Origin: Bemisia tabaci
Taxonomy: Eukaryota; Arthropoda; Insecta; Hemiptera; Aleyrodidae
Length of the DNA: 64,000 bases
Direction: 5' to 3'
NCBI RefSeq assembly: GCF_918797505.1
Contig: NC_092796.1
Location: forward strand, 58,806,851 to 58,870,850
Part shown: piece after piece, positions 11,601-33,914 of the stretch
How positions within the stretch are numbered: position 1 is the stretch's first letter
How the letters are laid out: each line of letters begins with the position of its first letter
Made by a program: the position numbers and the translations under genes
Notes under the pieces: model-generated
Told to the model about the DNA's origin: nothing
The model's input: only the letters and a program-made list of their open reading frames with translations
The model's database searches: none

Positions 11601-12507
11601 AGGAAGTTTTGGCAGTGACTGTCTAAGATTTGGACTGACTCCTTGCCATTTGATCATTTCAGCAATAAATGCAACCTCTAGCGTATCAGCTTTGATAACG
11701 TTCTCGTCAGCAGTATCAGTTGCACACTCATCATGCTCCGCATGTACGATGCCTTCATCAGTGTGTAATCCCGGTACAATGTCTCGCTGTTCCACCGGAC
11801 CGTCTGTGCAAGAAACTGACGCGGGATCAGCCTCTAGTACGTTTTCTTCGTCTTCACATTCACCGCGAGAAATTTCAAGTTGGACTTCATCTTTGATATT
11901 CTGCAGATCATCAGCAGACATTTTACAAGACTTCAGTATCACTCGCTTTTGGTCCATTAGGCGCTGCTCTGAGACATTTTTGCAGTCAGGGAATCTATCA
12001 AGAAAAAGTTTCCGCATTTCCGCCCGGTATCCAGGAATCGTTTCCATTTTAGACGCGAGGTAATAACAACGCATGACGTGTTGATTCATGCTTAGAGTCC
12101 AAGCCATGCGTTGCCTGAGTTTCCCTGCTTTAGTGGTCGTCGGCTGACTAGTCGACGAAACACTTGGAGCAGGGTTGGTATTGTTGGTTGGCCGTCGTGC
12201 CATACACTGGGACGATCCACGACCATCTTCGTTCCCAGCGTGGGGACTATTATGCGCGCCATGTTCCCCAACCCTTGACGCGACCGAGGCTCTTCTTTTA
12301 TCGTCTTGTGCAAGAAGATCACTGACTGGGGGCTGCAAACCCCCAACCAGGGATGCGCAGCTGGTTTTTCAAGTTGGGACAAGCACAACTCTACTTCCTC
12401 GGACGCCCCTGGCGATGTTTTGGCCACGAGGATGCCCAGCCACTTGCTCGGGTACCGCGGGGTCGCCAGCCCTCGAAAGGGCCTCCCGTACGACATTGAG
12501 GTCGCCC
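8504..12507 (-). mobile_element. R4/Dong-like non-LTR retrotransposon, copy at contig end A
   Basis: It runs on the minus strand from the N gap (5' side) to poly-A beside a TAA repeat (3' side), with one long ORF (8727-12338) and a 3' UTR of about 200 bp containing a roughly 47-bp A/T homopolymer (8650-8690). The Bombyx R4-clade element Dong is known for TAA-repeat targets, which fits its site in the ATT tail of another LINE. The 5' end is cut by the gap. The second copy shows the 5' end meeting (ATT)n at about 18186. Confidence 0.8.
8727..12338 (-). CDS. R4/Dong-like retrotransposon polyprotein: reverse transcriptase with restriction-like endonuclease
   Basis: An intact 1203-codon ORF copies element RNA into DNA at a nicked target site. 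The N-terminal 300 residues are hydrophilic, without a zinc finger that I can see. Basic helices follow at about 300-400. Reverse transcriptase motifs: NWKAPGPDK (about 466-474), YIDYKKAFDSM (about 597-607, catalytic Asp), FQGDSLSALWF (about 665) and AYLDD (about 707-711, catalytic Asp pair). A knuckle CRKCNAASETIDHITSGC lies at about 1011-1030, followed by RPDIVLVDKRD-YIIDISIP at about 1095-1117, the PD-(D/E)XK endonuclease signature of RLE-type LINEs. No AP endonuclease is present, which separates it from Jockey, RTE and CR1. Length and layout fit the R4/Dong group better than R2, which has N-terminal zinc fingers. Start chosen as the only Met before the conserved part. Apparently intact. 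Confidence 0.9.
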   Translation of the reverse strand: MQPPVSDLLAQDDKRRASVASRVGEHGAHNSPHAGNEDGRGSSQCMARRPTNNTNPAPSVSSTSQPTTTKAGKLRQRMAWTLSMNQHVMRCYYLASKMETIPGYRAEMRKLFLDRFPDCKNVSEQRLMDQKRVILKSCKMSADDLQNIKDEVQLEISRGECEDEENVLEADPASVSCTDGPVEQRDIVPGLHTDEGIVHAEHDECATDTADENVIKADTLEVAFIAEMIKWQGVSPNLRQSLPKLPYTPKLFACIERMNRIIPAHIREESTLEEVHCIIYCAAQAITQAVKGPTNHGRRGIKLNAPRWQLRIERKVANLRQEIGRVTQCVKGNTSKRLRAKMAHVNEENLLTHLDTLKQKLKVQAARLRRYKKSYQRHLDNALFQRNERAFYRRMGNAADVRNAPEEIPSKDDVTRFWRSIWSEAKEHNSTAPWIEQETVRHAHITHEGEVEITKEDVRRATLHIHNWKAPGPDKVHNFWLKKLTCVHTQLSRSIQDIITHPDKMPIFLTEGVTFAKHKGGDSKDPSEYRPITCLSTLYKVITSIVTRLIGRHVAKWKILCEEQKGCRKGSFGCKELLIIDSVVLKQAVKERRNLHVGYIDYKKAFDSMPHSWLIHVLNIYRVHPVIVHFLKSILASWRTRIIIQGSASELETEVIHILRGIFQGDSLSALWFCLGLNPLSNCIREMKVGFPLRRNRQVLHVINHLAYLDDIKIYASQRDQLHQLFKVIEEVSDDIGMMLGVPKCATLHIENGVIVREDGFVTNSGDVINSLTMEDAYKYLGMWQSSSIQKVRVKEHLVNTFVDRLSAILKTSLNSKHTTKAINTFAIPALAYSFGVVPWSDTELEGLNRKVRTLMTKWNKHHPRAAKERIHIPRKQGGRGILDVKEVCHSQVRNLRNYFLSRNDSTLHAAVNAIDKSYTPLRLACHDLNEEQPSDPVAGQLEAWASKPLHGRFYHSVAQDHVSEGKSFLWLSKGQLYPETEGFVLAIQDQVISTRNYKRYILKEKIESDKCRKCNAASETIDHITSGCALLAGKEYTERHNNMAKIIHLALANDRELCDTAEPYYKYCPATVLENQRFRLYWDNPILTDKTIMANRPDIVLVDKRDRTAYIIDISIPNNHNLELKYQEKMVKYLPLAAEMKRLWNLNIVCIKPLIMSVTGIVPKSLVQHLRDLGINSYLLHSMQKSVVISTSSIVRSFLNIE

Positions 12508-13007
12508 NNNNNNNNNNNNNNNNNNNNNNNNNNNNNNNNNNNNNNNNNNNNNNNNNNNNNNNNNNNNNNNNNNNNNNNNNNNNNNNNNNNNNNNNNNNNN
12601 NNNNNNNNNNNNNNNNNNNNNNNNNNNNNNNNNNNNNNNNNNNNNNNNNNNNNNNNNNNNNNNNNNNNNNNNNNNNNNNNNNNNNNNNNNNNNNNNNNNN
12701 NNNNNNNNNNNNNNNNNNNNNNNNNNNNNNNNNNNNNNNNNNNNNNNNNNNNNNNNNNNNNNNNNNNNNNNNNNNNNNNNNNNNNNNNNNNNNNNNNNNN
12801 NNNNNNNNNNNNNNNNNNNNNNNNNNNNNNNNNNNNNNNNNNNNNNNNNNNNNNNNNNNNNNNNNNNNNNNNNNNNNNNNNNNNNNNNNNNNNNNNNNNN
12901 NNNNNNNNNNNNNNNNNNNNNNNNNNNNNNNNNNNNNNNNNNNNNNNNNNNNNNNNNNNNNNNNNNNNNNNNNNNNNNNNNNNNNNNNNNNNNNNNNNNN
13001 NNNNNNN
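12508..13007. other. Assembly gap of exactly 500 N
   Basis: A round-number run of N marks a scaffold join of unknown size. The sequence before it ends in GGTCGCCC. The sequence after it starts with the equivalent of position 7407. Confidence 0.99.
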
Positions 13008-14311: not shown

Positions 14312-17300
14312 TAAAAAAAAAAAAGAAAAAAAAAATTTAAAAAAAATTAAATTTTAAGCGAAATCAAAAAAATTATTCGATATTAAGAAAACGACCTGAC
14401 AATACTTGACGTGCTTATAACGACGGACTTCTGCATTGAATGAAGCAGGTAACTGTTTATTCCGAGGTCTCGAAGATGTTGAACTAAACTTTTTGGAACT
14501 ATCCCGTTACTGACATTATCAGGGGCTTGATACAAACAATATTCAGGTTCCATAATCGCTTCATTTCTGCAGCTAAGGGCAGATATTTTACCATCTTTTC
14601 CTGATACTTCAGCTCCAAGTTATGATTATTAGGGATGCTAATATCAATGATGTAAGCGGGTGCGATCTCGCTTATCAACAAGCACTATGTCCGGTCTGTT
14701 TGCATGATGGTTTTATCGGTTAGGATCGGGTTATCCCAATAGAGCCGGAAGCGCTGATTCTCCAGGACCGTGGTGGCAATATTTGTAGTAGGGTTCAGCA
14801 GTATCACATAGTTCTCGATCGTTGGCCAGCGCTAGATGGTTATAATTTTAGCCATGTTGTTATGCCGCTCGGTATATTCCTTCCCTGCAAGCAATGCGCA
14901 ACCAGATGTAATGTGATCTATTGTCTCGGATGCAGCATTACACTTCCTACACTTATCGCTCTCGATCTTCTCCTTCAGTATATATCTCTTGTAATTCCTG
15001 GTACTGATCACTTTGGTCTTGTATTGCGTGGAACAAATCCTTCCGTTTCTGGATACAGCTGCCCTTTCGATAACCACAGAAAGACTTTCCTTCACTATAA
15101 CATGATCCTGCGCAAACTGGAATGATAAAAGCGTCCATGCAGCGGCTTGGAGGCCCATGCCCTCCAACTGGCCAGCAACTGGGTCTGAGGGTTGTTCTTC
15201 ATTCAGATCGTGACAAGCGAGGCGCAAAGGCGTGTTAGGATTTATCTATGGCATTTACTGCAGCGTGCAAAGTGCTGTCGTTTCTACTGAGGAAGTAATT
15301 TCGCAGGTTACGGACTTGGCTGTGGCAGACCTCCTTCACATCAGGATACCTCTTCCCCCTGTTTGCGGGGGATGTGTATTCTCTCCTTCGCGGCTCTTGG
15401 GTGATGCTTATTCCACTTGGTCATCAAGGTTCTGATCTTTCCTATTAAGCCCCTCAAGCTCCGTGTCAGACCATGGGACAACGCCAAATGAGTACGCTAA
15501 CGCAGGAATGGCGAAGGTGTTGATTGCCTTGGTCGTATGTTTTGAGTTTAGAGAGGTCTTAAGTATCGCACTCAGCCGATCAACGAAGGTGTTAACCAGG
15601 TGCTCTTTGACTCTCACCTTCTGGATGGAAGAGCTCTGCCACTTTCCAAGGTATTTATAAGCATCCTCCATTGTCAAGCTATTGATGACGTCACTCCAGA
15701 ATTGGTCCACAAAACCATCCTCCCGCACTATAACGCCGTTTTCTATATGGAGCGTCGCGCATTTAGGTACTCCAAGCATCATGCCAATATCATCACTGAC
15801 CTCTTCAATCACCTTGAAAAGTTGATGCAACTGGTCTCTTTGGGATGCATAGATCTTAATATCATCCATAGTAGGCTAGGTGGTTGATGACGTGGAGTAC
15901 TTGTCTGTTCCGACGCAGAGGGATACCCTACCTTCATCTCTCGAATGCAATTTGAGAGGGGATTGAGGCCTAAACAGAACCACAATGCACTAAGACTGTT
16001 CACCTTGAAAAATACCTCGCAGGATGTGGATGACCTCAGTTTCCAATTCACTCGCCGATCCTTGTATTATGATTCTGGTGCGCCAAGATGCCAAAATGCT
16101 CTTCAGGAAATGAACAATGATCAGGATGGACTCGGTAGATATTTAAAACGTGAATTAGCCAGCTGTGCGGCATTGAATCAAAAGCTTTTTTGTAGTCGAT
16201 GTAACCCACATGTAAGTTACGACGTTCCTTTACTGCCTGCTTGAGCACAACCGAATCAATTATTAACAGCTCTTTGCACCCGAAGCTTCCCTTGCGACAC
16301 CCTTTCTGCTCTTCACACAAAATTTTCCACTTAGCTACATGTCTCCCAATTAATGGGTTACAATGGATGTGAGACTTTATAGAGCGTGGAGAGACATGTA
16401 ATCGGTCTATACTCAGATGGGTCCTTCGAATCGCCTCCTTTATGTTTCGCAAACGTCACTCCTTCAGTCAGAAATATCGGCATTTTGTCAGGATGAGTAA
16501 TAATATCTTGTGAATGCTTCTGTGAAAGCTGCGTATGCACACATGTTAACTTTTTCAGCCAGAAATTGTGGAACTTTGTCTGGTCCGGGAGCCTTCCAGT
16601 TATGAATATGCAATGTTGCTCTCCGCACATCTTCCTTAGTGATTTCAACCTCACCTTTCATGTGTAATGTGGGCATGACGCACTGTTTCTGCTTCAATCC
16701 AAGGAGCTGTGCTATTATGCTCCTTGGCCTCTGACCAGATGGATCGCCAAAATCGCGTTACGTCATCTTTACGATGGGATTTCTTCGGGAGCGTTTCTCA
16801 CATCCACGCGGCGTTTCCCATCCTTCGATAGAAGGCTCTCTCTCATTACGCTGAAACAGAGCAATTATCTAAATGGCGCGTGTATGATTTTTTATATCTT
16901 CTGAGTCGGGCAGCTTGAACTTTTAACTTCTGCTTCAGTGTATCAAGATGGGTTAAAAGGTTTTCCTCATTCACCATGGGCCATCTTCGCCCTTAACCTC
17001 TTTGAGGTATTCCCTTGACACACTGGGTGACTCTCCCAATCTCCTGCCTTAGGTTGGCCACTTTCCTTTCAATCCTAAGTTGCCATCTTGGTGCATTCAG
17101 TTTGATTCCCCTACGCCCATGATTTGTGGGGCCTTTGACGGCTTGTGTTATCGCCTGAGCTGCACAATAGATGATGCAATGAACTTCCTCTAACGTTGAT
17201 TCTTCACGAATGTGTGCTGGTATAATTCGGTTCATCCTCTCAATACACGCGAACAACTTAGGAGTGTAAGGAAGTTTTGGCAGTGACTGTCTAAGATTTG

Positions 17301-18186
17301 GACTGACTCCTTGCCATTTGATCATTTCAGCAATAAATGCAACCTCTAGCGTATCAGCTTTGATAACGTTCTCGTCAGCAGTATCAGTTGCACACTCATC
17401 ATGCTCCGCATGTACGATGCCTTCATCAGTGTGTAATCCCGGGTACAATGTCTCGCTGTTCCACCGGACCGTCTGTGCAAGAAACTGACGCGGGATCAGC
17501 CTCTAGTACGTTTTTCTTCGTCTTCACATTCACCGCGAGAAATTTCAAGTTGGACTTCATCTTTGATATTCTGCAGATCATCAGCAGACATTTTACAAGA
17601 CTTCAGTATCACTCGCTTTTGGTCCATTAGGCGCTGCTCTGAGACATTTTTGCAGTCAGGGAATCTATCAAGAAAAAGTTTCCGCATTTCCGCCCGGTAT
17701 CCAGGAATCGTTTCCATTTTAGACGCGAGGTAATAAACAACGCATGACGTGTTGATTCATGCTTAGAGTCCAAGCCATGCGTTTGCCTGAGTTTCCCTGC
17801 TTTAGTGGTCGTCGGCTGACTAGTCGACGAAACACTTGGAGCAGGGTTGGTATTGTTGGTTGGCCGTCGTGCCATACACTGGGACGATCCACGACCATCT
17901 TCGTTCCCAGCGTGGGGACTATTATGCGCGCCATGTTCCCCAACCTTGACGCGACCGAGGCTCTTCTTTTATCGTCTTGTGCAAGAAGATCACTGACTGG
18001 GGGCTGCAAACCCCCAACCAGGGATGCGCAGCTGGTTTTTCAAGTTGGGACAAGCACAACTCTACTTCCTCGGACCGCCCCTGGCGATGTTTTGGCCACG
18101 AGGATGCCCAGCCACTTGCTCGGGTACCGCGGGGTCGCCAGCCCTCGAAAGGGCCTCCCGTACGACATTGAGGTCGCCCCTGAGGT
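14150..18186 (-). mobile_element. R4/Dong-like retrotransposon, noisy second copy with intact 5' end
   Basis: Same element as 8504-12507. Its 5' terminus reads directly into (ATT)n at 18184-18203 on the plus strand, giving the microsatellite border on the other side. The 5' UTR of about 170 bp is GC-rich (18010-18180). Confidence 0.8.
14373..18009 (-). pseudogene. R4/Dong-like polyprotein, frame-broken second copy
   Basis: It spans the same start (MQPPVSDLLAQDDKRRASV) and stop as the intact ORF at 8727-12338 but is 25 bp longer, and many small indels break it into pieces (for example 15408-15869, 16993-17448 and 17496-17717). Fragments still show KAPGPDK, DYKKAFDSMPHS and CRKC-H-C. Because the indels are spread evenly and mostly lengthen runs, I infer read errors and not evolutionary decay. 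Confidence 0.85.
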
Positions 18187-18297
18187 ATTATTATTATTAT
18201 TATTTGTATGATTGAAATTTTATCCAATCAATTTTTAATTAATTTCATTCATAAAATCCATAAAAATAAGTATATTTTAAACGTGTCGTATCCTTAA

Positions 18298-18659
18298 GAT
18301 GATTCAACGGACGCAATTTTTAGTGCCAGAACGACGTGCGATACATCGAATCGATTTGTTCTGAAATTTCAGCTACCTGTCATTTTTTTCGAATTTTGAG
18401 ATCGTTCTTCTTTTGTCATGAGTCTGAAGAATTCATATTCCAAATTTGACAAACAAATTCAACGTAATAAAGGCGTGGTTTTTTTAGAGGAAAAATATGG
18501 CATTCGATACTGACACCGAAACTGCACTCGAATTCGATATTTTTCCTCTAAAAATACCGCGCCTTTGTGAAGTTGAATTTCTTTGCGAAATTCGGTACAT
18601 GAATTCTTCAGTCTCATGAAAAGAGAAGTGAGATTTTAAAATTCGCAAGAAATGACTAG
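18298..18659. mobile_element. TTAA-type palindromic MITE, copy 3, left part
   Basis: Follows TTAA (18294-18297), starts GATGATTCAACGG and contains the central palindrome (18470-18560) and most of the right arm. It stops at AATGACTAG, where the 15-kb element begins. The missing 80 bp lies at 33714-33793. The two parts sum to 442 bp, the family's full length (439-447). Confidence 0.85.
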
Positions 18660-18670
18660 CCCATGTAGCA

Positions 18671-18800
18671 GAACTGAAATCTTGATTGGTGATAAATTGC
18701 CCATTTATGACCCATTTATTGGAAACCAATAATATTGCCACAAAATGGACATATTTTAGGAATTTAATTGCCATTCAATTGCAATTTAATTTGTGTTAAT
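18671..18800. repeat. Left subterminal repeat region of the 15-kb element
   Basis: Contains words such as GATTGGTGATAAATTG, CCATTTATGACCCATTTATTGG and ACCAATAATATTGCC, which match the ATTGG-AATAAA/TTTATTGG words at the right end (33480-33700). In En/Spm such subterminal repeats are binding sites for the TnpA protein. Confidence 0.5.
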
Positions 18801-19079
18801 CTTATTATCATATGATATTGCTGATTTGTTGCTATTACTTGTACGATGATATGGCAAACCGATTTGCGATGAAACTTCATCTACATTCATCAAACAGGGC
18901 TGATCTAGGCTGAGCCCCTGCGTGACATAATTTAGGAGTAAATTTGAGGTTTGAGGAAAATTTAGGTGCAATTTTTTTTACCTTCAATAATTTAAGTTAA
19001 TTCGGATCTCCGTAAAATTTCATCTCGCAATGTTCTAGCATGTTACAAAAAATAAACCCTCGTCTGGTGATGAAAAAGA

Positions 19080-19270
19080 CAATAATCCGACAACCACGGA
19101 CGGCGCCTCGCAGCGGTGAGGTGGAGGGTGGAGGGGGATTGTGCACATGCGCATGCGCCGCGCCACATACCGGCACCTGCAACGGTCTGATCCATCCAAG
19201 ATGGCGAATTTCACTCTCTCGACTTACGAAGCAACAGCCTCGCGGTACATCCAGTAGTAGTGAACAATTT
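19080..19270 (+). promoter_or_regulatory. GC-rich promoter-like region
   Basis: A GC- and CpG-rich island in AT-rich DNA, just upstream of exon 1 of the second gene. TGCGCATGCGC (19148-19158) is a perfect NRF-1/Ewg-type palindrome, and CCAAGATGGCG (19196-19206) is a YY1/Pho-type site often placed at housekeeping transcription starts. No TATA box seen. The ATG in the second motif opens an 18-codon upstream ORF if it is transcribed. Confidence 0.5.
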
Positions 19271-19444
19271 AGGTGATCGGAAGTTTTTGATTAGAGATTA
19301 TGGAAGAGTTTTGAAACTGTTGAATGTAAATTCTGAAATGAAGTCGTGATACGTGTCGTGTTAGTTCTAATTGAGGTTTATATCGAAAGTTATTTGTGTC
19401 CCGTTCCTGTTTTATCCCACGTCATCGTGAAGGCACTCTAAGTC

Positions 19445-22400
19445 ATGGCATCTTCCTCATCTTCGAACATTCTGAACAAGGTTAGTATGAGTGAGCTAAA
19501 ATCTTTCTCTTTCAACCCAATCAAGTTAATACTGGATTGCACCATTACGCCGCCTACTCCTTCAAACTTCACTTTACCGCTGGTTTTTCTTGGAGTCAAA
19601 TAAAATTATGTCTCGGTAAATCACCCAACTCTTCCCTGCTCGTGGCAGAACATCGAACAATCCATCCTGGGAGTTGGTGTTGTTTATGTTGTAATTCTAA
19701 CGAATAATTCCAAAAATGGTCAAATGAAACGCACGGTTTACTTGGTGATGCCACTGCAAAGGATCATCACTCTGTTTTCAGTGATAAATGCTTCGGAAGG
19801 AAGCTGAACAAGCCACAATATCAGGCACTGAGAATACCTTACCGATGAGACTCCTACGAACCATTACTATTGTCTAACAGTAGTTTGTCTGAAGTGGATT
19901 CCAGGCGTTGCAACTCAGTTTGATGGGATTTTGTTAAATTTCAATAGTCTAATTTAGTGGCTGCGTCATTTGATATAATATCGAACCCTTGGCTCAAGTG
20001 TGAGCGAACTCGAAACTTGTTTCTGATTCACGCCCTTTGCGCCATGACGATAAAATGCATCCAAGTGGTCATTACAATCTAACTTTCTCGTGTTTAATGA
20101 GTCTTTAATTGATTTATGACCAGTCAATGACTAAATTCTAATAATCTTCACATTCCATCACACATGTCCTGATCTAAAGGGATTTTTCCGTTGGCGATAA
20201 CACTTTCTTCTCAGGAGAGAAACTGGAGCATTTTTTGAATTATATTAATGGAAGTATAAGACATTTCTTAATACTAACATGTTAAACGTTAACTTCACTC
20301 ATGGTGCAAGTTTTGTTTTGTCATTAAGTACCTACGATATTTTTTTTTTTTTTTTTTTTTTTTTTAAGTGCTAGATGTTTAATCTAATGCTCAAACAAAA
20401 GTTAAAATGTTTACCTTTTGTAAGTATTACAGGATCCTCTTTGTGTTTACAGTGTCTATTGGTATAATCTCTGATACTTGGGTAATATTTAGATCTCACC
20501 TAACCTGGCACAAGCAGAAATAAATTTCCCTATGATATTTGAATCAGCAAGCTAAAATTCTAACTGCGAGCTAAAACAAACCGTGTAGATGTCCTAAGAT
20601 TTTTGCAAGGACAAATACGACTGTTCCTTAATTTTGTTCTTTTATTTCAGTCTTCTCATCACACCTAACATGTCAGACTCGTCAGACAGTAGTCAATCGG
20701 GGGGCAACCGCCATCAAGGCCTCAAACATCTAACGCGTTCGGGGAAATGGAAACGCCTTCGACGACAGTCTGACCAACAAGATAGCTCACTCAACATGAC
20801 TGCGGAGTCAACCAAGTCGGATTTTTCCACGACAACATCCGATGCTACATCGCACAATTTCTCTGGAATAAGGCAACAGTCGAGTGATTCCCCAGAGCCT
20901 GCTCCTGAATCACCTTCTGAACATTCATTCTTTGCTTCCTCTCCTGTTGGTGATGTTCCCATGCCACCAATGCCCAATCTTCCTCCTAGTCCTCCCATCC
21001 TCATTCCAGGTGATATTAATCCCCCACACCCTTTTGGTAACGATGATGAGAGTGGTGCTGATGATGATAACAATGTCGACGATGATATCAATTTTGACGA
21101 TGATAACAATGTTGACGATGATTTAGTCAATGATGATGATAGTAATGTTAGCGATGATAGTTTTGGTGAGATTGTTGATGATGTAATTTTTGATTCAGAT
21201 CAAGATAATGAAGTTGACGATGATGTTGAAGAAGTTGAATTTGATGCTGTTAAAATGCTTGAAGAGAGGTTACGTGTTTGGGCTTTAGAGCAGAATGTTA
21301 CACACAAAGCTTTAAGCAAACTTTGTAAGTTGTTAAGAAGTGTCCATCCTGAATGTTATAGTAGGCTCCATGTTGATGCTCGGACGATCTTAAGAACCCC
21401 TGTTGAAAAATTGGACCCCATCCCAGTCCATCCAGGACATTCATTCAAAGTTGGGCTTAAGAATCAACTTGAGCTAGTCGCGCCATTGCTTCCAATTTTT
21501 ATCACAGAGCTCTTTGCATTGTTCGGCATGGATGGGCTGAATGTCTCTGAGAGTCCTCCCTCTGAGACATGGCCCATCATGGTAACGTTCCCAGGAGTGA
21601 AAGAGGTGCTAAATAGGGTGTTTCCAATTTTGGTGTACTATGGGTCTAGTAAACCAGCTAGTTGTGAAGCCTTCCTGCGTCCTTTTGTCGATGAGCTGCT
21701 AGAGATTTTAGAAAATGGATTTGTTTACGGTGAACGCACCATCAGATTCAAAACAATTGCATTTTGTTGTGATGCCCCTGCGAAAGCATTTATACTAGGA
21801 ATAATGGGACACAGTGGCTATGGGTCGTGTACTCGTTGCATTGTTGATGGTAATCATGTTATGGGCCATAGAGTTTTCTTGGAATTTGACTGTCAAGCCA
21901 GAACTAACATTGGTTTTCGAACAAGAGAATATCCTGCCTTTCATCATGGTCCAACTCCTTTGGAGGAAATTGAGTCTTTGGACATGACTTTGGATATTGT
22001 ATTAGATGTTATGCATCTAATTTTCATTGGTGTACAGAAATCATTACTGACCACTTGGAATAGTGGGGGTGTAGGTCTCATGTTGTCTCCCATGCTACGA
22101 GGGAGACTTTCGGATACTTTGATTTCGTTGCGGCGTCATGTGCCTAGCGACTTCCCTCGGAAACCTCGGCATTTAAAGTCTGCCGCCAATTGGAAAGCGA
22201 CTGAATCTAGGTTATTCCTCCTTTACTTGGGCCCTGTTGTGCTAAAGGATATTTTATCTCCTGAGAAATACAATCACTTTTTATCGCTGCATATAGCATG
22301 TATAATTTTGTTCAATCCTTCTTGGTGCTGTCAAGAAGAAGGGCGGCAGTACGCACGTCAGCTGTTGCACCATTTTGTGAATGAAACCAGAGTACTGTAT

Positions 22401-25400
22401 GGAGACCATCTTATTGCCCACAATTTCCACAATCTTTTGCATGTGGTCGATGACGCTGATCGATTTTTCTCCAAATGCCCAAATTTTACGCTTCAAATGA
22501 TCTCTGCTTTTGTGTTTGAAAATTACTTGCGGCTGTTGAAGAAGTTACTCCGAGGGCCCACCAAGAAACTGCAACAACTGGCTAGACGTTTAGGTGAACT
22601 ATGTTCCCCCAAGTATTGTAAAATGTACAGACCATCCTCACAGCAGGTTCTGCAATTGCAGAAGCAGCATCACGATGGCCCACTCCTTCTTGCATGTCAG
22701 GGTCCCCAGTACAAAAAAATCAAAATTCCTGATAAATTTGAACTTTCGGCAGACTCAGTAGCTGACTGTTACTGTGTTTTAAATACTGGTACTGTTGTCA
22801 TGGTTGAGAATATCGCCTTTTGTCGAGTTTCTGGAGAAGAAGTGATTATTGGCAAAGAAGTTCTGCAAGGAAATGATAGCATTTACCCTCACCATTTTTT
22901 GAGCAGCAAATCATTGGGAATTTTTGAATTTACGAGGCTCAATAGGCGTAGACAGTTTTGGCCTGTCTCCAGAATCACTCAGAAGTGCATGGTCTTGCCT
23001 AGTGGGGATAGCTTCATTGTTTTCCCTCTACTCCATACACATACCCCTACTTAAACTTGTTCTCCGCTGCTATGGAAGCTGAATAATGTATTCAGGAACT
23101 AAGGAAGAAATGATTTTACCTATTTCCTTGTACCTATCTAATGTTGTTTTTCTTACCGTGTTTCCTTCCATTATTCATTTTGTTTTATTTACCCTTCTCC
23201 ACTCGCTGTTGCTCTTATTTTTTGAGCTTTCGTCGGTGCAAAAGTAAGCAATCTTTCTTGAAAAATAAATCACTTCCAAATAAAACAATTTTTCTACATT
23301 GTTTTAATTGGAAGCAATTCATTTTTTTAAGTATTATACATAATATTATATAATACTACGAAAAATCGTATGATATAATATTATGAATTTTTTTTATTAT
23401 TAAATTGAATTGATTTACCTAATTAGTCAATGCTGATTCTTTCATCTCTCTACGTTAAATCATGGTCACATTCAAGTGGAACTTCTGATAAACAAGTAAA
23501 TAGTGAAGGGCTCATTCATTTTTTAAGTCCACACCCTTAAGTTTTTTTAAAATGATAAACACTAAACTATGGTTGGTCTTTGGTACCTAAAAGGAAATAA
23601 ATCCATGTGAAATATTTTTTCTTCGCGTGGTATCTTCCGTATGCTTGAAATGGTTTTTTACATGTTTGGGTTTTTCTTTCTTGTGTGTCATTTTTTCACC
23701 CGTTTGAGAGAATTTTTTATTTGTTTGGTGAAATTCGAGGTGCACTACGATAATATTTTAAATATACTTTTCAAAGTACCTATACTTTCTACTTTCCTTA
23801 CCGGCGACAAAATAATATTAGCAAAGAATCGATTGCTCGAACGATTCTAGGTGGCAGTAGCCACCCCAACCCAATCCTGAAAAACTCCATCTAAAAAATT
23901 GACAAAAAAAAAAAAAAAAAAAAATTAAAATAAATCAAATGATAGGCCAAATCTTAGCCTGCAATTTAGTAGTTTGGCAACAGTTGCTGGTCTAAGAAAG
24001 AAAACCAAGTGAAGTAATATTTTACAGACTGGGAGAAAATTCCCACATACGTATGCGAAGAAAATCTCACAGGGGGAATAAATATTTCACATAGATTTTT
24101 TCTCTTTCAGGCACAAATAACTAACCATACGAAACTCACACGCAATAATCCTTGGCAGGAAATAGCACGAGAGTTGTAGAGAGAACATACTGTCCATTGC
24201 ATTTTCCTGTATTATCAAGAATGCAGGAAGCTCTTAAATAAGCCTTCAAAGATAAATTATAATTTGCCTTTGCTGAAATCAGATGTTTTGCTATAATTGC
24301 TTCTATAGGTAAAACAACGTGTTTAACTCTTTCCTCCTCCAAAAGTTGTACGTTTTCTTTCGGAAAGGTAGCGTAGCGCGCCTGAATGACTACCATCGCC
24401 AAAAACAGCGCGTTTAAAGTTCCCGTCCCCAAACACAGCGCGCTTAAATTACTTGCAGCATGAAATTCAGCCGAATTCCTCATCGCATTTGCGCTTTATA
24501 AATAAGTTGTCTGCAAAACCAATCGAGATGAGTGAAAAAAAGCACTCCTTAATTCTTACTCGAGCGGCAACGTGATCATGATCGCAAGATCGAGGACATT
24601 CTGCACCCCTGTGTAAAATAACTATACTTACTTCTCGTTGCAGGGTCCTAAGCCACTGTGGTGCATCGTGAAATTAATGGACACCGGGGAATTAGATGTG
24701 CTTCCCAACAACTGGATCTTAGTCGGAGAGGGGAAATCGTACTACCCAGTCGGAAATCGTACCCTCGTGAACAAATTTGCAAAAACCTGCGAAGACCCAC
24801 ATGTAAACCGAAATCTTGAACTCGGAGGTGTTGAATGGGACCTGGTTGAAATCGAAATCCTTAAGGAAGATATAGGTAAGAAGTAGTTTTGAAATAATTA
24901 CTCCTCAAAAGTAGGGCACATAATTAAGGGAAGGAAAACAGTGAGCTAATACAAAATGTCAAGTTGTTAAATAGTCATTGAAAAGGTGGAAAAGTCGGAA
25001 AATTTCGCCTGACCGTGAAACGATGGAGAAAAGTCAAATAATTTCACCCTAGAATTCTTACTTTGGTCGAGTGTGAAGTAATTAAGTTTGTAATTTTCCA
25101 AGACTGAGTGCCTTAAAAATCTTGATATGAAACATTTTTATGAGACATCTTACTTAAAAAGCATTGTAAATTCCGGGTATTTTATGTTCACCCAGATAAG
25201 CCATAGCACAGTCAGGTTATTTTGCAATGTATTAAACTTGCCACTTTGTGATACCTGTTTTTGGCTAAAAGCAACAACAACAACAAAACTTATTTCACCT
25301 GGCTGTATGTTGGAACCTTTTGGTTGAACTAGAAGGGTGTATTGAGGAGAAGTATTATCTTGAGTCTGGTCTGGTTAACCCAATTTTTTTTCTACTAAAA

Positions 25401-28400
25401 GACTTATTTTTGTGTTAGTCATCAAGTAACTCTTCATTTCAAGCAAATTATGCGAATTTTGAGTTTTCCTCTCACTTTCATTTTAAATTAATTTTTTTGT
25501 TTTTTTTTTTGTTTGTTCTTCTTGGTAGATGACTTCACGAAAGCCATGAAGGATGCAATCAGGGCGACTCAAGGAAAAAGACCTTCAGCTGAATCCGAAA
25601 AAGATGTAGGGAGAGGGAAGAGGCTAAAGAAAGTGAAAAAACTTTTCTCTTCTGAATCAGATCGGGAAAGTTCATCAGCTGAAGGTAGAAAGGAACCCAT
25701 AAGCAGCAAAAGACTGAAAAAAGTACAAAAACTCACTTCCTCCGAATCGGAAGATTGCGAAAGCTTATTAACTGAAGGTAAAATGCAACACAAGCAGCCG
25801 ACAAGCAGCAAGAAAATGCAGAAACCTATACCGCCCATTAAACCTTCCTCCGTACCGACTATTCCTACATGTTTTTTAGCCCCCAAGCATAAGAAACCAG
25901 AATCTGCTCCCAAAAGTCCAGAAGTACCTCAATCTTTCGAGGAAAGTACATCCATCCAATCGACCGAGGAAAGTACACCGAAGAGACCGTCATCATCCAA
26001 ATCTAGGAAATGTAGACAAAGGCAAAAAAAACATAAATGTGCCGTTTTGAATCCCATCACAATTGAAGAATTGGCTCATGCGCAATGCATGCTGTCAAGT
26101 AAGTCTCATGAATATTTTTAGAATTTTTTCTTGATCTGTGAGCAATAGCATTTGCTCAATTTTAAATGAAATTTGCTATTATTTATTAGTCCAAAAATTT
26201 TGAATTTTCAGAGTTCTTGCATTGTTCACATAGCTGTAGTTTGAGTCAAAGTCGTTGTACAGAAGTCATACCTGTCCCCACAGAAAGCTTCTTTTGTATT
26301 CTTTCCTGTCATCCACTACTGATACATTTTTGGACCTAAAGTCATTCTGACCACATTTTCATTTCAAACGGTTTAGACCTGTGATCCGAAACGATAAAAA
26401 TTGGTATTTTTCTTTTAATCATCAATTCAAGAAAGTTTTCACGAAAAGTTTGCTGTTTGAGGATGCACTGATCATCACATTATTGAATTTTTATATTCTT
26501 CAGTTTGAAACAAAACATTTTTACACTTCAGCATGACGTATCCTCTATGCATTCTATGCATCATTTAAAATAAATTTCATACCAGGGTTCCAGTTATCGA
26601 GCGTATCTTTTATGTGTAAAATAATTATGATTACAGGAGAGTTCCAAAAACTCAAAGAAATGTTGCAGAAATCCATGAGCGAAATCATGGATCGGCTGGA
26701 TGAGCTGCTTCGAAACAGTCAGGAGACTTCTCAATCAGATGATGATGAAAGTAAAGCAAAAATTCAGGAATTACTGAAGGATGCGCCCTTCAAAACAAAA
26801 GAAGCCTTCAACAGCTTTGACAAAACCTTATCTGAAACCAGTGATCTCGTGGCTGGGTTGGTAAGTGTTTTGGTCAGTCTTCTGTCAATCAAATTTTTAA
26901 ATGCTTGGAGGGGATCTGAAGTATTTGGATATGTTTTAGGCTAATAGTCAAAGTAGGCATTTGGTCAAACTTTTGAGAATAACAAAGTTTTAACATAAAA
27001 GTTACAAAAAATTCTCAATGTTTTAATGTTCTGAACAAATATCTCCTTCATGTTGAGATTTTTCATGGAACTGTATCATTTAATCGATTCCTGTTAAATT
27101 TTCGAATTTAAAATTGTAAATATTTCGTATTTTATGCGATATCATTGTTCATATTCGGTATAGACATTTCTTAAACGGTTCCCGAAATTGTTTAGAATGC
27201 AGCTGAGAATCCTTGTTTGCATTAAATTGAACCATCATTATTAACCGCATTGAACTGGCAAAATTCAGTTAAAGATTTTTAATTTCAATATGATTGAGAA
27301 TACTTGCTCAGGCGTTTCACAAAATGCCTGATTTAACATTTGGTCTACGACAAATGTAAGTCCCTTTAAATCCCCCCTTTTTTTCTTTTTTAAATTTAAT
27401 TTTTTTATCATTTGGATGGGTCATGATTAAAGCTTCTTGACACGGCTCTGGTTTTAAAAATACCAAACCTGAGCCGTGTCAAGAAGCAAGACGATCCAGG
27501 TATATCAGAGTGCAATTATGTACAAGAAAGGCAGACCTTCATTAATATGTGTCCAAAACCGATAAATGCGCACACATGTTTGCAATGTTACGAACTTCCT
27601 GTCATAATTTATGTTTTCATAGAGAAACCTTTCCTTCAAACTTCCACGATTTTTCTTTATTATAAGCAAATTAAACTGTAGAAATTATTACAGTTGTACA
27701 TTCTTATTTATCGTGAAAAACTTTATGAATTTAAGCTTAAGAATCCATCCTCAGAAATTACAGTCACCTCTGCCTTTAAGCTTGAAGAATTCGCCCTATC
27801 GACTTCTGCAGAATATGTTGTAAAGCAGTGTCTCATTCGCATAATTTTGCTATTGCAAGTACACATACATAAAGTCGCGATTATAGCGCCGCCTCGCGCT
27901 CTGCGACGCCCAATCGCCATTGCCCCCTATCCTCCCAGAGATCATCAGGCAATTGGCACCTTCTGATCTCCTCCTCCACCCCTTGTCGCCAACCTTTCAC
28001 AGGACGTCCACGCCGTCGCCTTCCGGGAGGAACCCAATCGAAGACCTGCTTGGGCAACCGATCATCTGCCATCCTTCGCACATGTCCATACCAGACCAAC
28101 TGCTTGGACCTGATATCGTGCACGATGTCCTTTTCCACACCCATTATCTCGCGTACCCTTTCATTGCGGATACGCTCTCTTCTCGATATCCCAGCAGACC
28201 TTCGCCAAAAGTCCATCTCGGTTGCCCTAAGCATGTCTTCAGTTCTTTTCTTAAGTTGCCAGACCTCACTCCCGTAAGTTACGATACTCTTCACGATGAC
28301 GTTGTAAATTTTCCTTTTGGTCTCCTTGGAGATACTCTGGTCCCAGAGAACCCCATTTAGCATCGCGATAGCTTTCCTGCCTTGCACATTCCGATCTTTA

Positions 28401-31400
28401 ATGGCCCGATCCAAATTTCCGTCCTTAGTTAACCAAACTCCGAGATATTTATACTCTTCACAGTCCAGGATCTTCCGGCCATCCTCCAGTTCAATGCTTT
28501 GCTGATCACCACCGATAACCAACTTCTCCGTCTTAACCACATTTACTTCCATTCCCCACTTTCGGTATACTTCCACTAGCTTCCGCGTCATGTAATTCGC
28601 ATCTTCTTCGTCCTGAGCTATTACCACCTGATCATCAGCAAAGCACAGAGTATAAAGGGTGCCATCTTCACGTAGCGGGACGCCCATTCCCGAACAGCAT
28701 CTTTTCCATTCCTTTAAAACTTCTTCCAGGTACACTTTAAATAAGGTTGGCGACAAACAACACCCTTGTTTCAGTCCTTTAGTAATTAAAAACCCCAACG
28801 ATAACTCCCCATGCGATTTAACCCTAGAGAAAGCCCCACCATAAAATTCCTTAATAGCACTAATTAGTCCCCCACTAAAACCCCTTTTGTTCAAGGCTTC
28901 CCAAAGTTTCATCAATGGCACACTATCGTAAGCTTTCTGGAGATCCACAAACACTAGATGTAATTCCTGGCCAACTCCCTTCTTTTTCTCTATGACGTGG
29001 ATGATGGTAAATAAGTGATCAATCGTTGACCGACCGGCTCTGAAACCTGCTTGCTCTTCCGCTTCATGTTCTTTCCACTCCTCTTCAATTTTTGCTTTCA
29101 AGATTTTTCCATACACTTTGCTCAGGGTACCTGCAACCGACAGTCCTCTATAGTTATCACACTCATCTTTTCTACCCTTCTTCTTGTATATAGGTGACAC
29201 CCAAGACTCTTTCCATTCTGTCGGTACCTTTCCACCGTCCAAGCAATCTTGCATCAGGTATCTCAACCGTTGAAACAGCTTGCAGGTTCCACACTTGATC
29301 AACTCAGCAGGGATATTTCCCGGACCTGGAGCTTTATCGTTCTTCAGCTCTCGTACGGCCTTTACCACGTCCTCCATATGGATCTCCAAGTTATGATTAT
29401 CGTTAGTATACTCCAAGCTTACGCCTCCATCTTGAAATTCAGGTCGCCTTTCTGTCAGTAAATTTTTAAAATACCCCTCCAGTTTATCAATGGATATCGG
29501 AGATATTAAGTCACGCTTCATGTCCATTCGCAGCCCTTTCAGCAACTTCCAGCTCTCAGTGCTTTTCCTTCCTCCTATGTACGTGTCTATTTTGTTACAG
29601 CTCCTCTCCCAAGATTCGTTCTTTTTCTTGGTTATGAGCCTTCGTACCTGCGTCTGAGCTTTTTTATACGCCTCTTTGTCTTCTGTTTTTTTAGAGGAAA
29701 GGAACTGATGATATTTTTTCCGTTTCTCCTGAATCTCCTTCTCAATTTCTTCGTCCCACCAGTAAGGTTTTTCGCTAACTTTCCTATCATCAGCGACACC
29801 AAGAGCTTCCATTGCTGCCGAGTGAATGCAATCCTTCAGGAACTGATACTGCTGTTCGGTATCACCGTCCCTTGATTCGCCCAACTTCTCATCCAAGCGC
29901 TTTCCATATAAAGCCCTTACACTTGGATGCTGCAAGCTGTCAATGTTATAGTTTACAAGCTTGACACGATCTTTTTGTTGGTGAACTTCTTCCTGTGCTT
30001 GCCTGGTCTCCTGGCTCCCTTTCACTGGGAAAGCTATTTTCGCCCCGAGGAAATAATGATCACTGCCGCAGGAAAGACCTCTCCACACTCTAACTTGCTG
30101 AATCTTCATTCCCGTGTCTTGTCTGACAACCACATAATCAATGATTGATTTCAATCCGCGAGTAGACTGAACCCAAGTAAATTTATGGATATCCTTGTGT
30201 TGGTAGAACCCATTGAGCACCTTCATGTCCATTGAGATCTCCCAACACAATGATTTCCCTCCTGGATCCAATCTTACCAATTTCCTCGTTCAATTCTTCG
30301 AAAAATTGGTCCTTCACTGCGACAGTGGAATCATCGTTGACTCCATACACTCCCAAAATGGTGATTTTATGGCCAAACACTGTCATATTCATCTTTATCA
30401 TTCGGGGGTTAACAGCTTCCCATGTAGTGATGCACTTCCGTAGGCTCTTGCGAATAAGAATTGCAACACCCTGTTGAGCTCGCTGATCTTTTTCCACGCC
30501 ACTATAAAACAAATCGTATTCCTTTACACTTACAGAGCCTTGTCCTTTCTTCTTCGTTTCTGTTAATACCGTGACATCAAATCCGCGACTCCCTATCTCC
30601 GATACCACTTGCGTCATTTTCGTAGAAATTCCTTGTACGTTCCATGTTCCAAAAACCATCATCCGTTTACGTAATTTTTTCCGATAAATCCGTTTATTTC
30701 CATTTGTACCGAGGCAATTGTTATTGGGTCTTTTAACAGTATTCCTTTTTCCGAGTATCGGGGAGTTAGCCCGATGACTCAACCCCCAACCTGGAGGACC
30801 GGGGTTTGATTTCGGAGTTTCCTCTCCTAGACAGGTTGCTTCCACTACAGCTGAGAGCCCTGTCTGCCCTTCCAATGGGTGGTTCATACGCCTTGAAGCC
30901 GGTGACCATCTCCACTACCCCATGAGGCAGGGGTTACCAGCTGGGGTCCGCAGGATTGCTAAACCTGTGACATCAGTCCCCCATACGGCTATTGCAAGTC
31001 CCTTCTCTATAATCATGTCATTAGACTCCTCATCAACTTTAGGTAGAATGAAGTTTCATGAAATTTTTTATTACGCAAACACCAATGCTTTGTTTCTTTT
31101 GTACATACCCCAGGTTCTACACTTCAATAATATTATTCAAAGCCAGAACAAATTGTCCCATGCTGCCAGGACTATCGTTCGGCAAGTTCTTAGTGAAGAG
31201 CTGCAGAAGGAGTCTTCGTGGATGGGGCTAACTTCCGACAAAGAGGGAGAGCTGAAACTTGGATTTGGCAGATCAGTATTCTGCAATTCAGTGCTAATGA
31301 GTAAGTTCGCATTATTATTAATTCTCTCATAATCCTCCTATGATTTCACTTTCAGAAGGCTTCTTAAATTTAGAAATCAATGCATCTGAAATGTTAATTT

Positions 31401-31810
31401 TTAGTTACTGAGTTCCCAAAGGTGTATACAGTCAAAATGTATAAAATCGCACTCATCGGTCAACAATCGCTCGCTCCTTGAATCACAAGGAACCCGTTAC
31501 ACTGCGTTACGTGGGAAATAAAATAGCCCTGATTCCAAGACAAGCTTTGACTCGAGAGATCTATTTTTGCAGGTTGGTTTAATGTCACTCTCGTAATCAT
31601 TTTTGAACATGTTCCCTCACAATTGGTTTTTTTTTTTTTTTTTTTTCTATTTTAAAATTTGTTTTTGTATTTTCAGAAACATTGAAAAGATCGAAGAAAT
31701 GGAAAAATGACAACATCGAAACGCTTGTCAAAGACACCATCTCAAACATGCTAACAATGTCGCAGTCTCTGAAGAAAAAGCCAAGTGCGGCCAAAGCAAA
31801 ACCCAAATAG
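19445..31810 (+). CDS. Six-exon gene of the 15-kb element; 460-aa protein with DUF4806-like C-terminus (putative TnpA-like partner)
   Basis: Exons inferred from GT-AG borders and frame: 19445-19480, 24644-24875, 25529-26098, 26637-26860, 31114-31300 and 31677-31810 (TAG). They sum to 1383 bases, 461 codons, and all phases match. Residues 1-12 are MASSSSSNILNK. About 13-89 form an N-terminal domain (LWCIVKLMDTGELDVLPNNW). About 90-280 are Lys/Ser-rich with repeated KRLKKV-KL-SSESE, probably nuclear. About 281-355 form a predicted coiled coil (FQKLKEMLQKSMSEIMDRL). About 356-460 resemble DUF4806 (VLSEELQKESSWMGL...LGFGRSVFCNSV); a BEN-like fold is the alternative. Intron 1 contains the transposase ORF; intron 4 contains the RTE LINE. 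By analogy with En/Spm TnpA it may bind the subterminal repeats; that is inference. Expression is untested. Confidence 0.65.
19481..20650 (+). other. Intron 1 of the second gene, part before the transposase ORF
   Basis: Starts GTTAGTATGAG. AT-rich, with a T-run of about 25 at 20341-20365, and ends in TTCTTTTATTTCAG, a good acceptor 19 bases before the transposase ATG. An alternative transcript could join exon 1 here; exon 1 would then add a 17-codon upstream ORF ending in TAA before that ATG. Confidence 0.45.
20670..23054 (+). CDS. En/Spm (CACTA/TNP2)-like transposase, 794 aa
   Basis: An uninterrupted ORF; the start is MSDSSDSSQSGG just after a consensus 3' splice site (20650). Residues 1-125 are Ser/Pro-rich, and about 126-190 are Asp-rich repeats. 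The catalytic region follows: TWPIMVTFPGV, VYYGSSKP, FCCDAPAKAF (Asp near 368), HSGYGSCTRC (zinc-type Cys pair near 387-390), DIVLDVMHLIFIGVQKSLL (Asp near 446), FPRKPRHL, NWKATESRLFLLYLGPVVLK and HNFHNLLHVVDD. This is the layout of the animal transposase-domain proteins related to TNP2 of CACTA elements. DxP(A), CxxC and DxMH are the recognisable signature; I did not place the final catalytic Glu. It lies on the same strand inside intron 1 of the neighbouring gene. AATAAA signals at 23264 and 23279 could end its transcript. It looks intact and potentially active. Confidence 0.8.
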   Translation: MSDSSDSSQSGGNRHQGLKHLTRSGKWKRLRRQSDQQDSSLNMTAESTKSDFSTTTSDATSHNFSGIRQQSSDSPEPAPESPSEHSFFASSPVGDVPMPPMPNLPPSPPILIPGDINPPHPFGNDDESGADDDNNVDDDINFDDDNNVDDDLVNDDDSNVSDDSFGEIVDDVIFDSDQDNEVDDDVEEVEFDAVKMLEERLRVWALEQNVTHKALSKLCKLLRSVHPECYSRLHVDARTILRTPVEKLDPIPVHPGHSFKVGLKNQLELVAPLLPIFITELFALFGMDGLNVSESPPSETWPIMVTFPGVKEVLNRVFPILVYYGSSKPASCEAFLRPFVDELLEILENGFVYGERTIRFKTIAFCCDAPAKAFILGIMGHSGYGSCTRCIVDGNHVMGHRVFLEFDCQARTNIGFRTREYPAFHHGPTPLEEIESLDMTLDIVLDVMHLIFIGVQKSLLTTWNSGGVGLMLSPMLRGRLSDTLISLRRHVPSDFPRKPRHLKSAANWKATESRLFLLYLGPVVLKDILSPEKYNHFLSLHIACIILFNPSWCCQEEGRQYARQLLHHFVNETRVLYGDHLIAHNFHNLLHVVDDADRFFSKCPNFTLQMISAFVFENYLRLLKKLLRGPTKKLQQLARRLGELCSPKYCKMYRPSSQQVLQLQKQHHDGPLLLACQGPQYKKIKIPDKFELSADSVADCYCVLNTGTVVMVENIAFCRVSGEEVIIGKEVLQGNDSIYPHHFLSSKSLGIFEFTRLNRRRQFWPVSRITQKCMVLPSGDSFIVFPLLHTHTPT
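23055..24643 (+). other. 3' UTR of the transposase ORF and rest of intron 1
   Basis: AATAAA at 23264-23269 and 23279-23284. An AT palindrome-like stretch with ATAATATTATA words is at 23330-23390, and an A-run is at 23906-23924. A minus-strand 115-codon ORF (24136-24483) has no recognisable domain and is not called. The region ends in CTTCTCGTTGCAG, the exon 2 acceptor. Confidence 0.5.
27432..27487. repeat. Perfect 17-bp hairpin in intron 4
   Basis: GCTTCTTGACACGGCTC and its inverse flank a 22-base AT-rich loop. Function unknown; perhaps a very short MITE relic. Confidence 0.8.
27881..30280 (-). pseudogene. RTE-like LINE, reverse transcriptase part of the ORF
   Basis: 799 codons open. Starting in the last part of the endonuclease (VLNGFYQHKDIHKFTWVQS, IDYVVVRQD), it runs through RT motifs NDKAPGPGNIPAELIKCG, YKKKGRKDECDNYRGLSV, EEQAGFRAGRSTIDHLF, LVFVDLQKAYDSV (catalytic Asp), GLKQGCCLSPTLF and LCFADDQVVIAQDEEDA (catalytic Asp pair). 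It ends with the RTE-type tail QLVWYGHVRRM...LPKQVFDW, an Arg-rich GRRRRGRP stretch and a final helix. The domain itself is uninterrupted. It is out of frame with the endonuclease part upstream, so the element as read cannot make one protein. The Met start of this frame is incidental. Confidence 0.88.
30183..30887 (-). pseudogene. RTE-like LINE, apurinic endonuclease part of the ORF
   Basis: About 160 residues of an exonuclease-endonuclease-phosphatase domain follow a 75-residue N-terminus: MVFGTWNVQGISTKM, VTVLTETKKKG, GVAILIRKSL, ITILGVYGVNDDSTV and EIIVLGDLNGHEG. After DLNGHEG the frame runs into nonsense, whereas the overlapping frame resumes at the region before the final catalytic His segment. 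Compared with related endonucleases, roughly 25-30 residues are missing, so a small deletion with frameshift lies near 30225-30240. It resembles the proteins often labelled craniofacial development protein 2-like. Confidence 0.87.
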
Positions 31811-31944
31811 TGTCACCCTGCTCTCAGTCGTCAGTCGCTGCTCTGTGATTATTTATAGATAGGCATTTTTTTAGATGGCCTTTTTTCTCTTTTTCTGCAT
31901 TTTCCTCCTTTTTATTAGTATTTTTGTCAATGAACAGCTCTTTC

Positions 31945-32790
31945 GCTTTTCTCTTTATCTTTTTATTTGTATTTGTTCAAATTAACAGACCTATTGCTGC
32001 TGTTTAATTCGCAGCTCCCTTTCACTATTCTCTAATGGAGATGTTGCATGTGTGAGGGATTTGCAATTTGACTGTTGTTTCCTACGTAAAAGTTTGCGAG
32101 AAGCACGATGGTGCCACTGGTTTTCTCTGAAATGGATGTTTCAGGAGAAAAAGCTCTCAAAGTGAGGCCAAAATGGAGGGGATATCCCGCCCTACCCTGA
32201 GAGTCCACCTCTCCATCAAAACGAAGTCTCCATGCAAAGATAGGGAGCAAATACATTGACAGGGCTGCCACTTCATTTGGGGACTCCAAAACTGAAAACA
32301 CGGCAACCCTGCTAATGTATTTGCTCCCTATCTCTGCATGGAGAGTTAGTTTTGATGTAGAGGTGGACTCTCAGGGTAGGGCGGGATATCCCCTCCATTT
32401 TGGCCTCACTTTGAGAGCTTTTTTTGAGCTTGGGAGATGATTTCAGAGAAAACCAGTGGCGCCATCGTGTTTCTCGGTTTCTCGCGAACTTTTATGTAAG
32501 AATCAATGGTCAAATCGCAAATCCCTCACACATGCAACATCTCCATTAACAGCCCTATCGCTGCTCTAATTAATTATAGTGAAGCATTTTCGGTCATTTG
32601 TTCCTCTTTATTTAAATTTATCTTCTTTTTATTTGTTTTTGTTCAAATTAACAGACTTACTGCTGCTGTCTAATTCGCAGCTCCCTTTCGCTATTCGCCA
32701 ATCAGCAGCCCTACAGCTGCTCTTTATTTAAGCAGCCCAATAGCTGCTCTCTAATTACCTGCTCTCCAATCAATAATTGTGGAGCATTCT
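31945..32790 (+). repeat. Duplicated GCTGCTCTAATTA-rich 3' region
   Basis: A roughly 90-bp unit (TTTTATTTGTTTTTGTTCAA, then TTAACAGAC, CTGCTGTCTAATTCGCAGC) occurs at 31945-32034 and 32605-32697, on either side of the 512-bp foldback. Short AGCAGCCCTA-AGCTGCTCT units continue to about 32790. Confidence 0.65.
32035..32546. mobile_element. 512-bp foldback MITE with TA target duplication
   Basis: ATGGAGATGTTGCATGTG at the left and its inverse at the right, with TA immediately outside both ends (32033-32034 and 32547-32548). The arms stay complementary almost to the centre (words TTTGCTCCCTATCT and GAGAGTCCACCTC mirrored). It sits 225 bp after the stop codon of the second gene, probably in its 3' UTR. 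TA suggests a Tc1/mariner-type mobiliser. Confidence 0.85.
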
Positions 32791-32904
32791 TGGCCCCTTT
32801 TTTCTATTTTTCTAAATTTATCTTCTTCTAGTTTTTTCAATAATGGTTAGACATTTTTAACCACTTTTTTCTATGAATCTGTCACTTTGATTGTTACCAT
32901 TTGT

Positions 32905-32960
32905 TGTATGTAATATTATAATTCATCGTAATATTATAATATACTGAATTTTTTTAAAAA
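32905..32960. repeat. AT hairpin with TAATATTATA words
   Basis: GTAATATTATAATTCATCG faces its inverse. The same word pattern occurs at 23330-23390 behind the transposase ORF, so it may be an element-specific transcript-end signal. Weak. Confidence 0.4.
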
Positions 32961-33479
32961 AAAAAAAAATAACGTTTTTACTTTACCTACTACGACCATA
33001 TCATTTTCATGAAATTATTTTTAAATTTATTACATAGTAAAATTTTTCCCCCAAAATGTAAGGAAAATTTTGAAATTCATTACATATGACACTATATCTC
33101 TTCCGCAATACATGTCTATTATCTTCAAGAGCATTTTATGCCTTTCTTAGTAAGTAAGCAATAATGTAACTCGCCCAGAAGATATTCGCAGTTCCACAAC
33201 AGTGTTTTTAAATGAATCGTTTTCCCCGGCATCTAAAAATAAAAATATGTCAATCAAAAAACTTGAAGTATTATAAAAACGACTACTACTTTTTCAGGGA
33301 GGAAAGACTAGACCTAGGAAAACGATTCTTATAAATTTACTGTTGTGCGTATCTTTGGGGCAAGTCAAGTTAACTTCCTTTCCTTTTCTTTTTTTGACTC
33401 TATTAATCCTCAATTCTTAGTATTCTTTGCAAGTTTTGCAGGGAGAAACTATTTTCAACCTGATACAGGGGACAAAAAA

Positions 33480-33702
33480 AAAGTTGAGATATTGATGGTT
33501 TATTGCTGTTTTATTACCAACATATTCCAATTTCATTGCAATTCGATTGGCAATAAAATGGACAAATAATTGGTCGACCGATGATTCCCGGATTGGTCGA
33601 TTATTGGCAATAAATGACCAATAAATGACCAATCGATGGAAATCAAATTGGAATAAAATTGGAAATAAATGATCAATATATTGGCAATCATCTTTCAAAT
33701 TT
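33480..33702. repeat. Right subterminal repeats of the 15-kb element
   Basis: Repeated words ATTGGCAATAAA, AATAAATGACCAAT, AAATTGGAATAAAATTGG and ATATTGGCAATC occur at least eight times in 220 bp. They match words at the left end. Confidence 0.6.
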
Positions 33703-33713
33703 TGCTACATGGG

Positions 33714-33793
33714 AGTAGCTGAAATTATGAAATGAATCGATGCTATATATCGCACGTCGCTCTGACACAAAAAATGGCGTCCGTCGAATCACC
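33714..33793. mobile_element. TTAA-type palindromic MITE, copy 3, right part
   Basis: Begins AGTAGCTGAAATTATG and ends GGCGTCCGTCGAATCACC before TTAA (33794-33797). It is the missing end of the MITE at 18298-18659. Confidence 0.85.
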
Positions 33794-33914
33794 TTAACTT
33801 GAATGCCCTCAGCTGTTTAAAGGGATATAAGAAGTATTTGCTATTCCTTCCAGTTCTGCGCATGGTTCTCATTTAATTCAGTCAAATAATATTGCATTTA
33901 ACTGGGAGAAATTA

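Follow-up and report, generated by a model that had tools for sequence, protein, structure and literature searches.

A TRC-type CACTA/EnSpm transposon of the whitefly Bemisia tabaci, with its probable transposase frame predicted to lie inside a second gene

We analysed a 64,000-nucleotide stretch of the Bemisia tabaci genome (NC_092796.1, positions 58,806,851 to 58,870,850 of the forward strand; hereafter the window), in which an initial annotation had described an En/Spm-like DNA transposon carrying two genes. Overall, we believe that window positions 18660-33713 are very probably a TRC-type transposon of the CACTA/EnSpm superfamily, inserted into a likely miniature inverted-repeat transposable element (MITE) and predicted to encode its own DDE transposase together with a differently spliced second protein. 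TRC elements, the animal branch of the CACTA superfamily, have CCC ends and a 2-bp duplication and are known from Tribolium and Aedes, according to the accessible part of PMC1636069; the accessible part of PMC4298943 applies the same two features as its TRC criterion. Both are found here: the terminal inverted repeats of the element and of its shorter genomic relatives (siblings) start with CCC, and the duplication is AG at this site, with a matching 2-bp flanking repeat at 9 of the 12 complete siblings. The superfamily proposed by the initial annotation stands, but a strict plant-type CACTA membership is rejected, since plant elements have CACTA ends and a 3-bp duplication.

The boundaries of the element can be placed to the base. 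The sequence CCCATGTAGCA occurs exactly at 18660-18670 on the plus strand and at 33703-33713 on the minus strand, and at no other exact site in the window; one additional site carries a single mismatch, against a chance expectation of 0.51 sites with at most one mismatch. As had been annotated, these perfect 11-bp inverted termini sit at the break of a hairpin, the insertion target, whose left part occupies 18294-18659 and whose right part occupies 33716-33797, both delimited by paired arms and by alignment across the site. Arm 18294-18376 pairs with 33715-33797 (82% over 83 bp), a second arm pair is formed by 18379-18507 and 18528-18656, and the flanks, when joined minus one AG, align with the other hairpin arm over 143 bp at 81% identity and with no gap. 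Because that alignment is gapless, the target-site duplication is the 2-bp AG, with copies at 18658-18659 and 33714-33715; a 3-bp duplication of the plant type was rejected, the length being 2 bp both at this site and in 9 of the 12 complete siblings. The interrupted hairpin is likely a MITE, to judge from its palindromic form. The element measures 15,054 bp, and subtraction of a long interspersed nuclear element (LINE) and a second hairpin, both later insertions, leaves about 11.4 kb, in agreement with the earlier estimate. Further copies in the genome begin at this very terminal base, which disposes of a chance inverted repeat.

Those copies were found by searching the B. tabaci genome (610 Mb, 151 contigs) with both ends, all match counts being lower bounds. 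The first 301 bases have at least 17 matches (the window and 16 others, 15 of which begin at base 1), and the last 301 bases at least 27 (the window and 26 others, 22 of which begin at base 1); the initial annotation had named copies ending elsewhere as a reason to doubt its limits, and the common terminal base instead upholds them on both sides. The sibling set was built from 10-kb stretches, one for each left-end match beginning at base 1 (15 in all); right-end matches with no left counterpart among these stretches, L028 and L041-L045 for example, are not part of it. The right end is present within those 10 kb at 12 of the 15 places. Ten of these complete siblings are 3,029-3,054 bp long and two are longer, at 4,377 and 4,594 bp; none of the 12 is flanked by a 3- or 4-bp repeat. 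The ten 3-kb siblings have a median pairwise identity of 99.5% (lowest 99.1%), and a family with these ends has therefore moved recently.

What the 3-kb siblings have in common with the 15-kb element is confined to its two terminal regions: about 145 bp (140-146) at 87-89% identity on the left (18660-18804, plus strand) and about 315 bp (314-316) at some 94% identity on the right (33401-33713, minus strand). The interiors of all 12 complete siblings gave no further match to the element at E <= 1e-5 and none to its two proteins at E <= 1e-3, and one sibling copy read for open reading frames (ORFs) held no ATG-started frame above 85 amino acids. Because the interiors match neither the element nor its proteins, the 3-kb siblings are not plain internal deletions of this copy, and that origin was rejected. 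The initial annotation had looked to non-autonomous deletion derivatives: short copies with the same ends do exist, but plain deletions of this copy are not what they are. The 12-copy family with its unmatched interior comprises L009-L011, L013-L020 and L022. Two members, L018 and L019 (G000:C2, at about 43.96 and 41.68 Mb), are identical and have the same left flank; they are not counted as independent insertions because they probably represent one segmental duplication.

The transposase is encoded by an ORF at 20670-23054 on the plus strand, open throughout its 794 amino acids, with a predicted CMC-type DDE core at about residues 191-657 and a predicted BAH-like C-terminal domain at about 659-785. 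Under the CMC residue definition of PMC12730594, the characteristic residues of the protein are predicted to be D288, D368, C387-x2-C390, H587-x3-H591 and E617. It is likely a cut-and-paste DDE transposase; its core is predicted to be RAG1-like. Identity to RAG1 and Transib is about 10-12%. The element differs from them in its TRC-type ends and in the predicted BAH-like tail that the transposase chain itself carries; in RAG, a PHD finger belongs to the partner protein RAG2. Of 23 aligned members of the transposase family, PF02992 gives a match at E <= 1 to 7, DUF1258 to 15 and DUF4218 to 13; sequence searches against solved structures gave no match at the default cut-off, and no related locus was confirmed in viral contigs or bacterial genome contigs. 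The Bemisia genome holds 57 other matches to the transposase beside its own, a dispersed family. Several of these related transposases have open frames, for example those at G000:C4:14897182 and G000:C10:20037154, and three equal-scoring pairs lie on different contigs, which suggests more recently mobile transposase families in this insect.

The C-terminal tail is modelled as a BAH fold. In the isolated model, all 50 of the 50 structure matches listed are BAH-containing proteins, re-alignment being limited to Foldseek's top-ranked chains, and the full-length model agrees on the tail, with BAH proteins in 13 of 13 rows. Two results pull the other way: Foldseek alone found no match to the tail at E <= 0.001, the best reaching 0.024, and Pfam scans show no BAH match on the transposase. 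The WFYRPE-type stretch known from BAH domains was not seen by eye in the tail. A generic beta-barrel that reads no histone mark would accommodate both that missing stretch and the weak best E-value, and we rate it a serious possibility, falling a little short of even chances, against which stands the agreement of the isolated and full-length models on BAH-containing proteins. None of the titles and abstract openings listed in a literature search describes a transposase with a BAH domain, and the accessible parts of the TRC element papers make no mention of such a domain; as a predicted module of a RAG1-like transposase, the BAH-like tail is new and unusual.

The second gene is modelled with six exons on the plus strand, all introns being GT-AG, in an unbroken frame of 460 codons to the stop, so that both genes are intact in frame, as the initial annotation had it. 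Exon 1 (19445-19480) contributes 12 codons, with a GT donor after AAG and a frame that continues into exon 2 (24644-24875); there follow the Lys/Ser-rich exon 3 (25529-26098), exon 4 (26637-26860), exon 5 (31114-31300) and exon 6 with the stop (31677-31810). Residues 24-460 are identical to the annotated B. tabaci protein P0023, which bears out exons 2 to 6. P0023 itself has no exon 1, its first residue being an internal Met, which tells against the complete model, and the exon 1 junction is for that reason a prediction. The transposase ORF separates exon 1, on its left, from exon 2, on its right, so that the predicted intron 1 (19481-24643) holds the whole of that ORF. A possible splice acceptor at 20649-20650, read from the sequence just 5' of the transposase ATG, makes it possible that the same first exon also serves as the leader of the transposase message. 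The initial annotation had contained neither this nested arrangement nor the 2-bp duplication nor the other genome copies.

Of 5897 candidates scored against the second protein, none other than itself qualified as a homolog at E <= 0.01; every Pfam family, those of plant accessory proteins included, stayed below its cut-off, and no relative was confirmed on plasmids. The C-terminal part, exons 4-5, can be aligned with DUF4806 (PF16064) over profile positions 7-71 of 90, at 15.4 bits against a cut-off of 25 and ranked last by E-value of five weak matches; since this family was already in mind before the scan, the likeness is a lead only, and none of the 4 papers found to contain the name DUF4806 is titled on transposons. 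The same dearth of homologs would be expected of a captured or host gene that lies by chance inside the transposon and plays no part in transposition. We consider this unlikely, as the predicted exon 1 to the left of the transposase ORF would interlock the two genes as in En/Spm, and the accessible parts of PMC1636069 and PMC2613891 report poor conservation for the accessory proteins of TRC elements and of plant CACTA elements.

The subterminal regions carry an 11-bp periodic signal that is solid at the right end and modest at the left. On the right (33514-33693) the lag-11 self-match is 0.56, a value reached in 0 of 1000 shuffles at that lag and likewise over lags 5-40, and the segment ranks 4th of 6314 window stretches; the first 110 bp on the left give 0.42, reached in 2 of 1000 shuffles at lag 11. 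Less favourably, the left-end period is weak once lags 5-40 are all allowed, 81 of 1000 shuffles reaching it at some lag, and the left end ranks 162nd of 6328 window stretches; near-copies of an 11-bp word number four at the right end and none at the left. Words of 7-10 bp that recur exactly in the subterminal regions were not clearly above shuffles (65, 27, 49 and 247 of 300).

Several observations weigh against the stretch as a complete and mobile unit. Three of the 15 left-end places (L012, L021 and L023) have no right end inside 10 kb, and 3 of the 12 complete siblings lack a matching 2-bp repeat, two of these three being duplicates of each other. The match to Transposase_21 (PF02992, TNP2) that the initial annotation expected was seen but fell below threshold, at 15.1 bits against a cut-off of 28.6. 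The exact transposase was found in a single copy, all other matches being at most 47% identical, and the near-identical siblings diverge from the element at both ends, by about 11-13% on the left and by 6% on the right; its description as possibly active is consequently unproven. An immobile relic, with both genes domesticated for the host and the siblings moved by another, lost autonomous element, would explain the single transposase copy, the annotation of the second gene as an ordinary protein gene, and siblings that resemble one another far more than they resemble the element. We nonetheless hold the relic to be quite unlikely: the inverted ends are perfect and, like the 2-bp duplication, intact, and the relatives of the transposase are dispersed in a transposon-like manner, 25 of the 57 spanning at least 600 residues without a stop and three equal-scoring pairs lying on different contigs. 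A complete, well-delimited TRC-type transposon, representing a new family of the TRC group, is well supported.

Closest to this family among known systems are SmTRC1, the TRC elements of Tribolium castaneum and Aedes aegypti, and Spongebob in Hydra, with CCC ends, a 2-bp duplication and a tnp2-like transposase; the ends and the duplication are the same here, and the likeness to Transposase_21 is below threshold. The claim that two-gene versions in insects are far less described was overstated, because Tribolium and Aedes had already furnished descriptions of the TRC group. Compared base by base, the end here matches that of the Tribolium TRC at 9 of the first 11 positions and that of the Aedes element at 6 of the first 10. 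The element is larger than both: it has 15 kb (about 11.4 kb once the later insertions are discounted), the Tribolium element 5.2 kb and the Aedes element 9.2 kb. SmTRC1 resembles the layout predicted here in its alternatively spliced transcripts and its second, poorly conserved protein, for which rapid divergence is also suggested in the accessible part of PMC1636069; unlike in the described TRC elements, a predicted six-exon second gene encloses the transposase here. In this respect the likeness is to maize En/Spm, where the transposase frame lies in intron 1 of the accessory gene (PMC2613891, accessible part), and the subterminal repeats are of short period in both, 12 bp in En-1 and about 11 bp here. 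Other animal CACTA elements have 2-bp duplications but CAC ends, as stated in the accessible part of PMC6004678.

Regardless of the specific details, a general scheme for the element can be proposed. Its own DDE transposase would drive cut-and-paste movement, the second, differently spliced protein likely being needed for binding the element ends. A single promoter to the left of 19445 would feed two splice forms: the one in which exon 1 is followed by 20651 would be the message for the transposase, and the one in which exon 1 runs on into 24644 would give the protein of gene 2. That protein may play the part of plant TnpA at the subterminal 11-bp units. The BAH-like domain may contact nucleosomes at the donor or target site, and the 3-kb siblings may have been mobilised in trans by this element or by a lost related one. 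A wider proposal, which we regard as doubtful, is that arthropod TRC transposases have a chromatin reader, the BAH domain, built in, and that it directs their excision or insertion towards marked nucleosomes; one chain would then correspond to what RAG divides between the RAG1 core and the PHD reader of RAG2, and a fast-evolving DUF4806-type protein encoded around them would serve as TnpA.

Later insertions have left their own marks. A LINE lies on the minus strand in intron 4 of gene 2 at 27861-30999, a span that includes one copy of its perfect 12-bp target duplication GCTATTGCAAGT; it holds ORFs of 799 and 234 amino acids and looks recent. A 516-bp MITE-like hairpin downstream of gene 2 (32033-32548; arms 32033-32102/32479-32548 and 32148-32269/32302-32423) has, by eye, TA on both flanks. 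Outside the element, a 1203-amino-acid ORF in the region of 8727-12338 and 14832-17448 resembles a reverse transcriptase by eye, these two segments holding that protein and, a few kilobases off on the same strand, a broken second copy of it; a run of 500 N (12508-13007) lies beside the first reverse-transcriptase-like ORF. Rfam and tRNA scans of the window gave no matches.

Of two Bemisia repeat surveys, the accessible part of one names CACTA as one of the superfamilies that are most active at present (PMC9017028), and that of the other has a table entry for CACTA whose first count is 134 (PMC9143410). In the accessible literature, descriptions of insect TRC elements are based on their termini and on the similarity of their transposases; here a complete insect unit can be read, its genes predicted to be interlocked as in maize En/Spm and its ends confirmed by siblings. 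If the BAH-like domain does read histones, the target choice of a RAG1-related transposase would become testable in a single protein, and a full unit accompanied by many short passengers makes the whitefly a test bed for trans-mobilisation.
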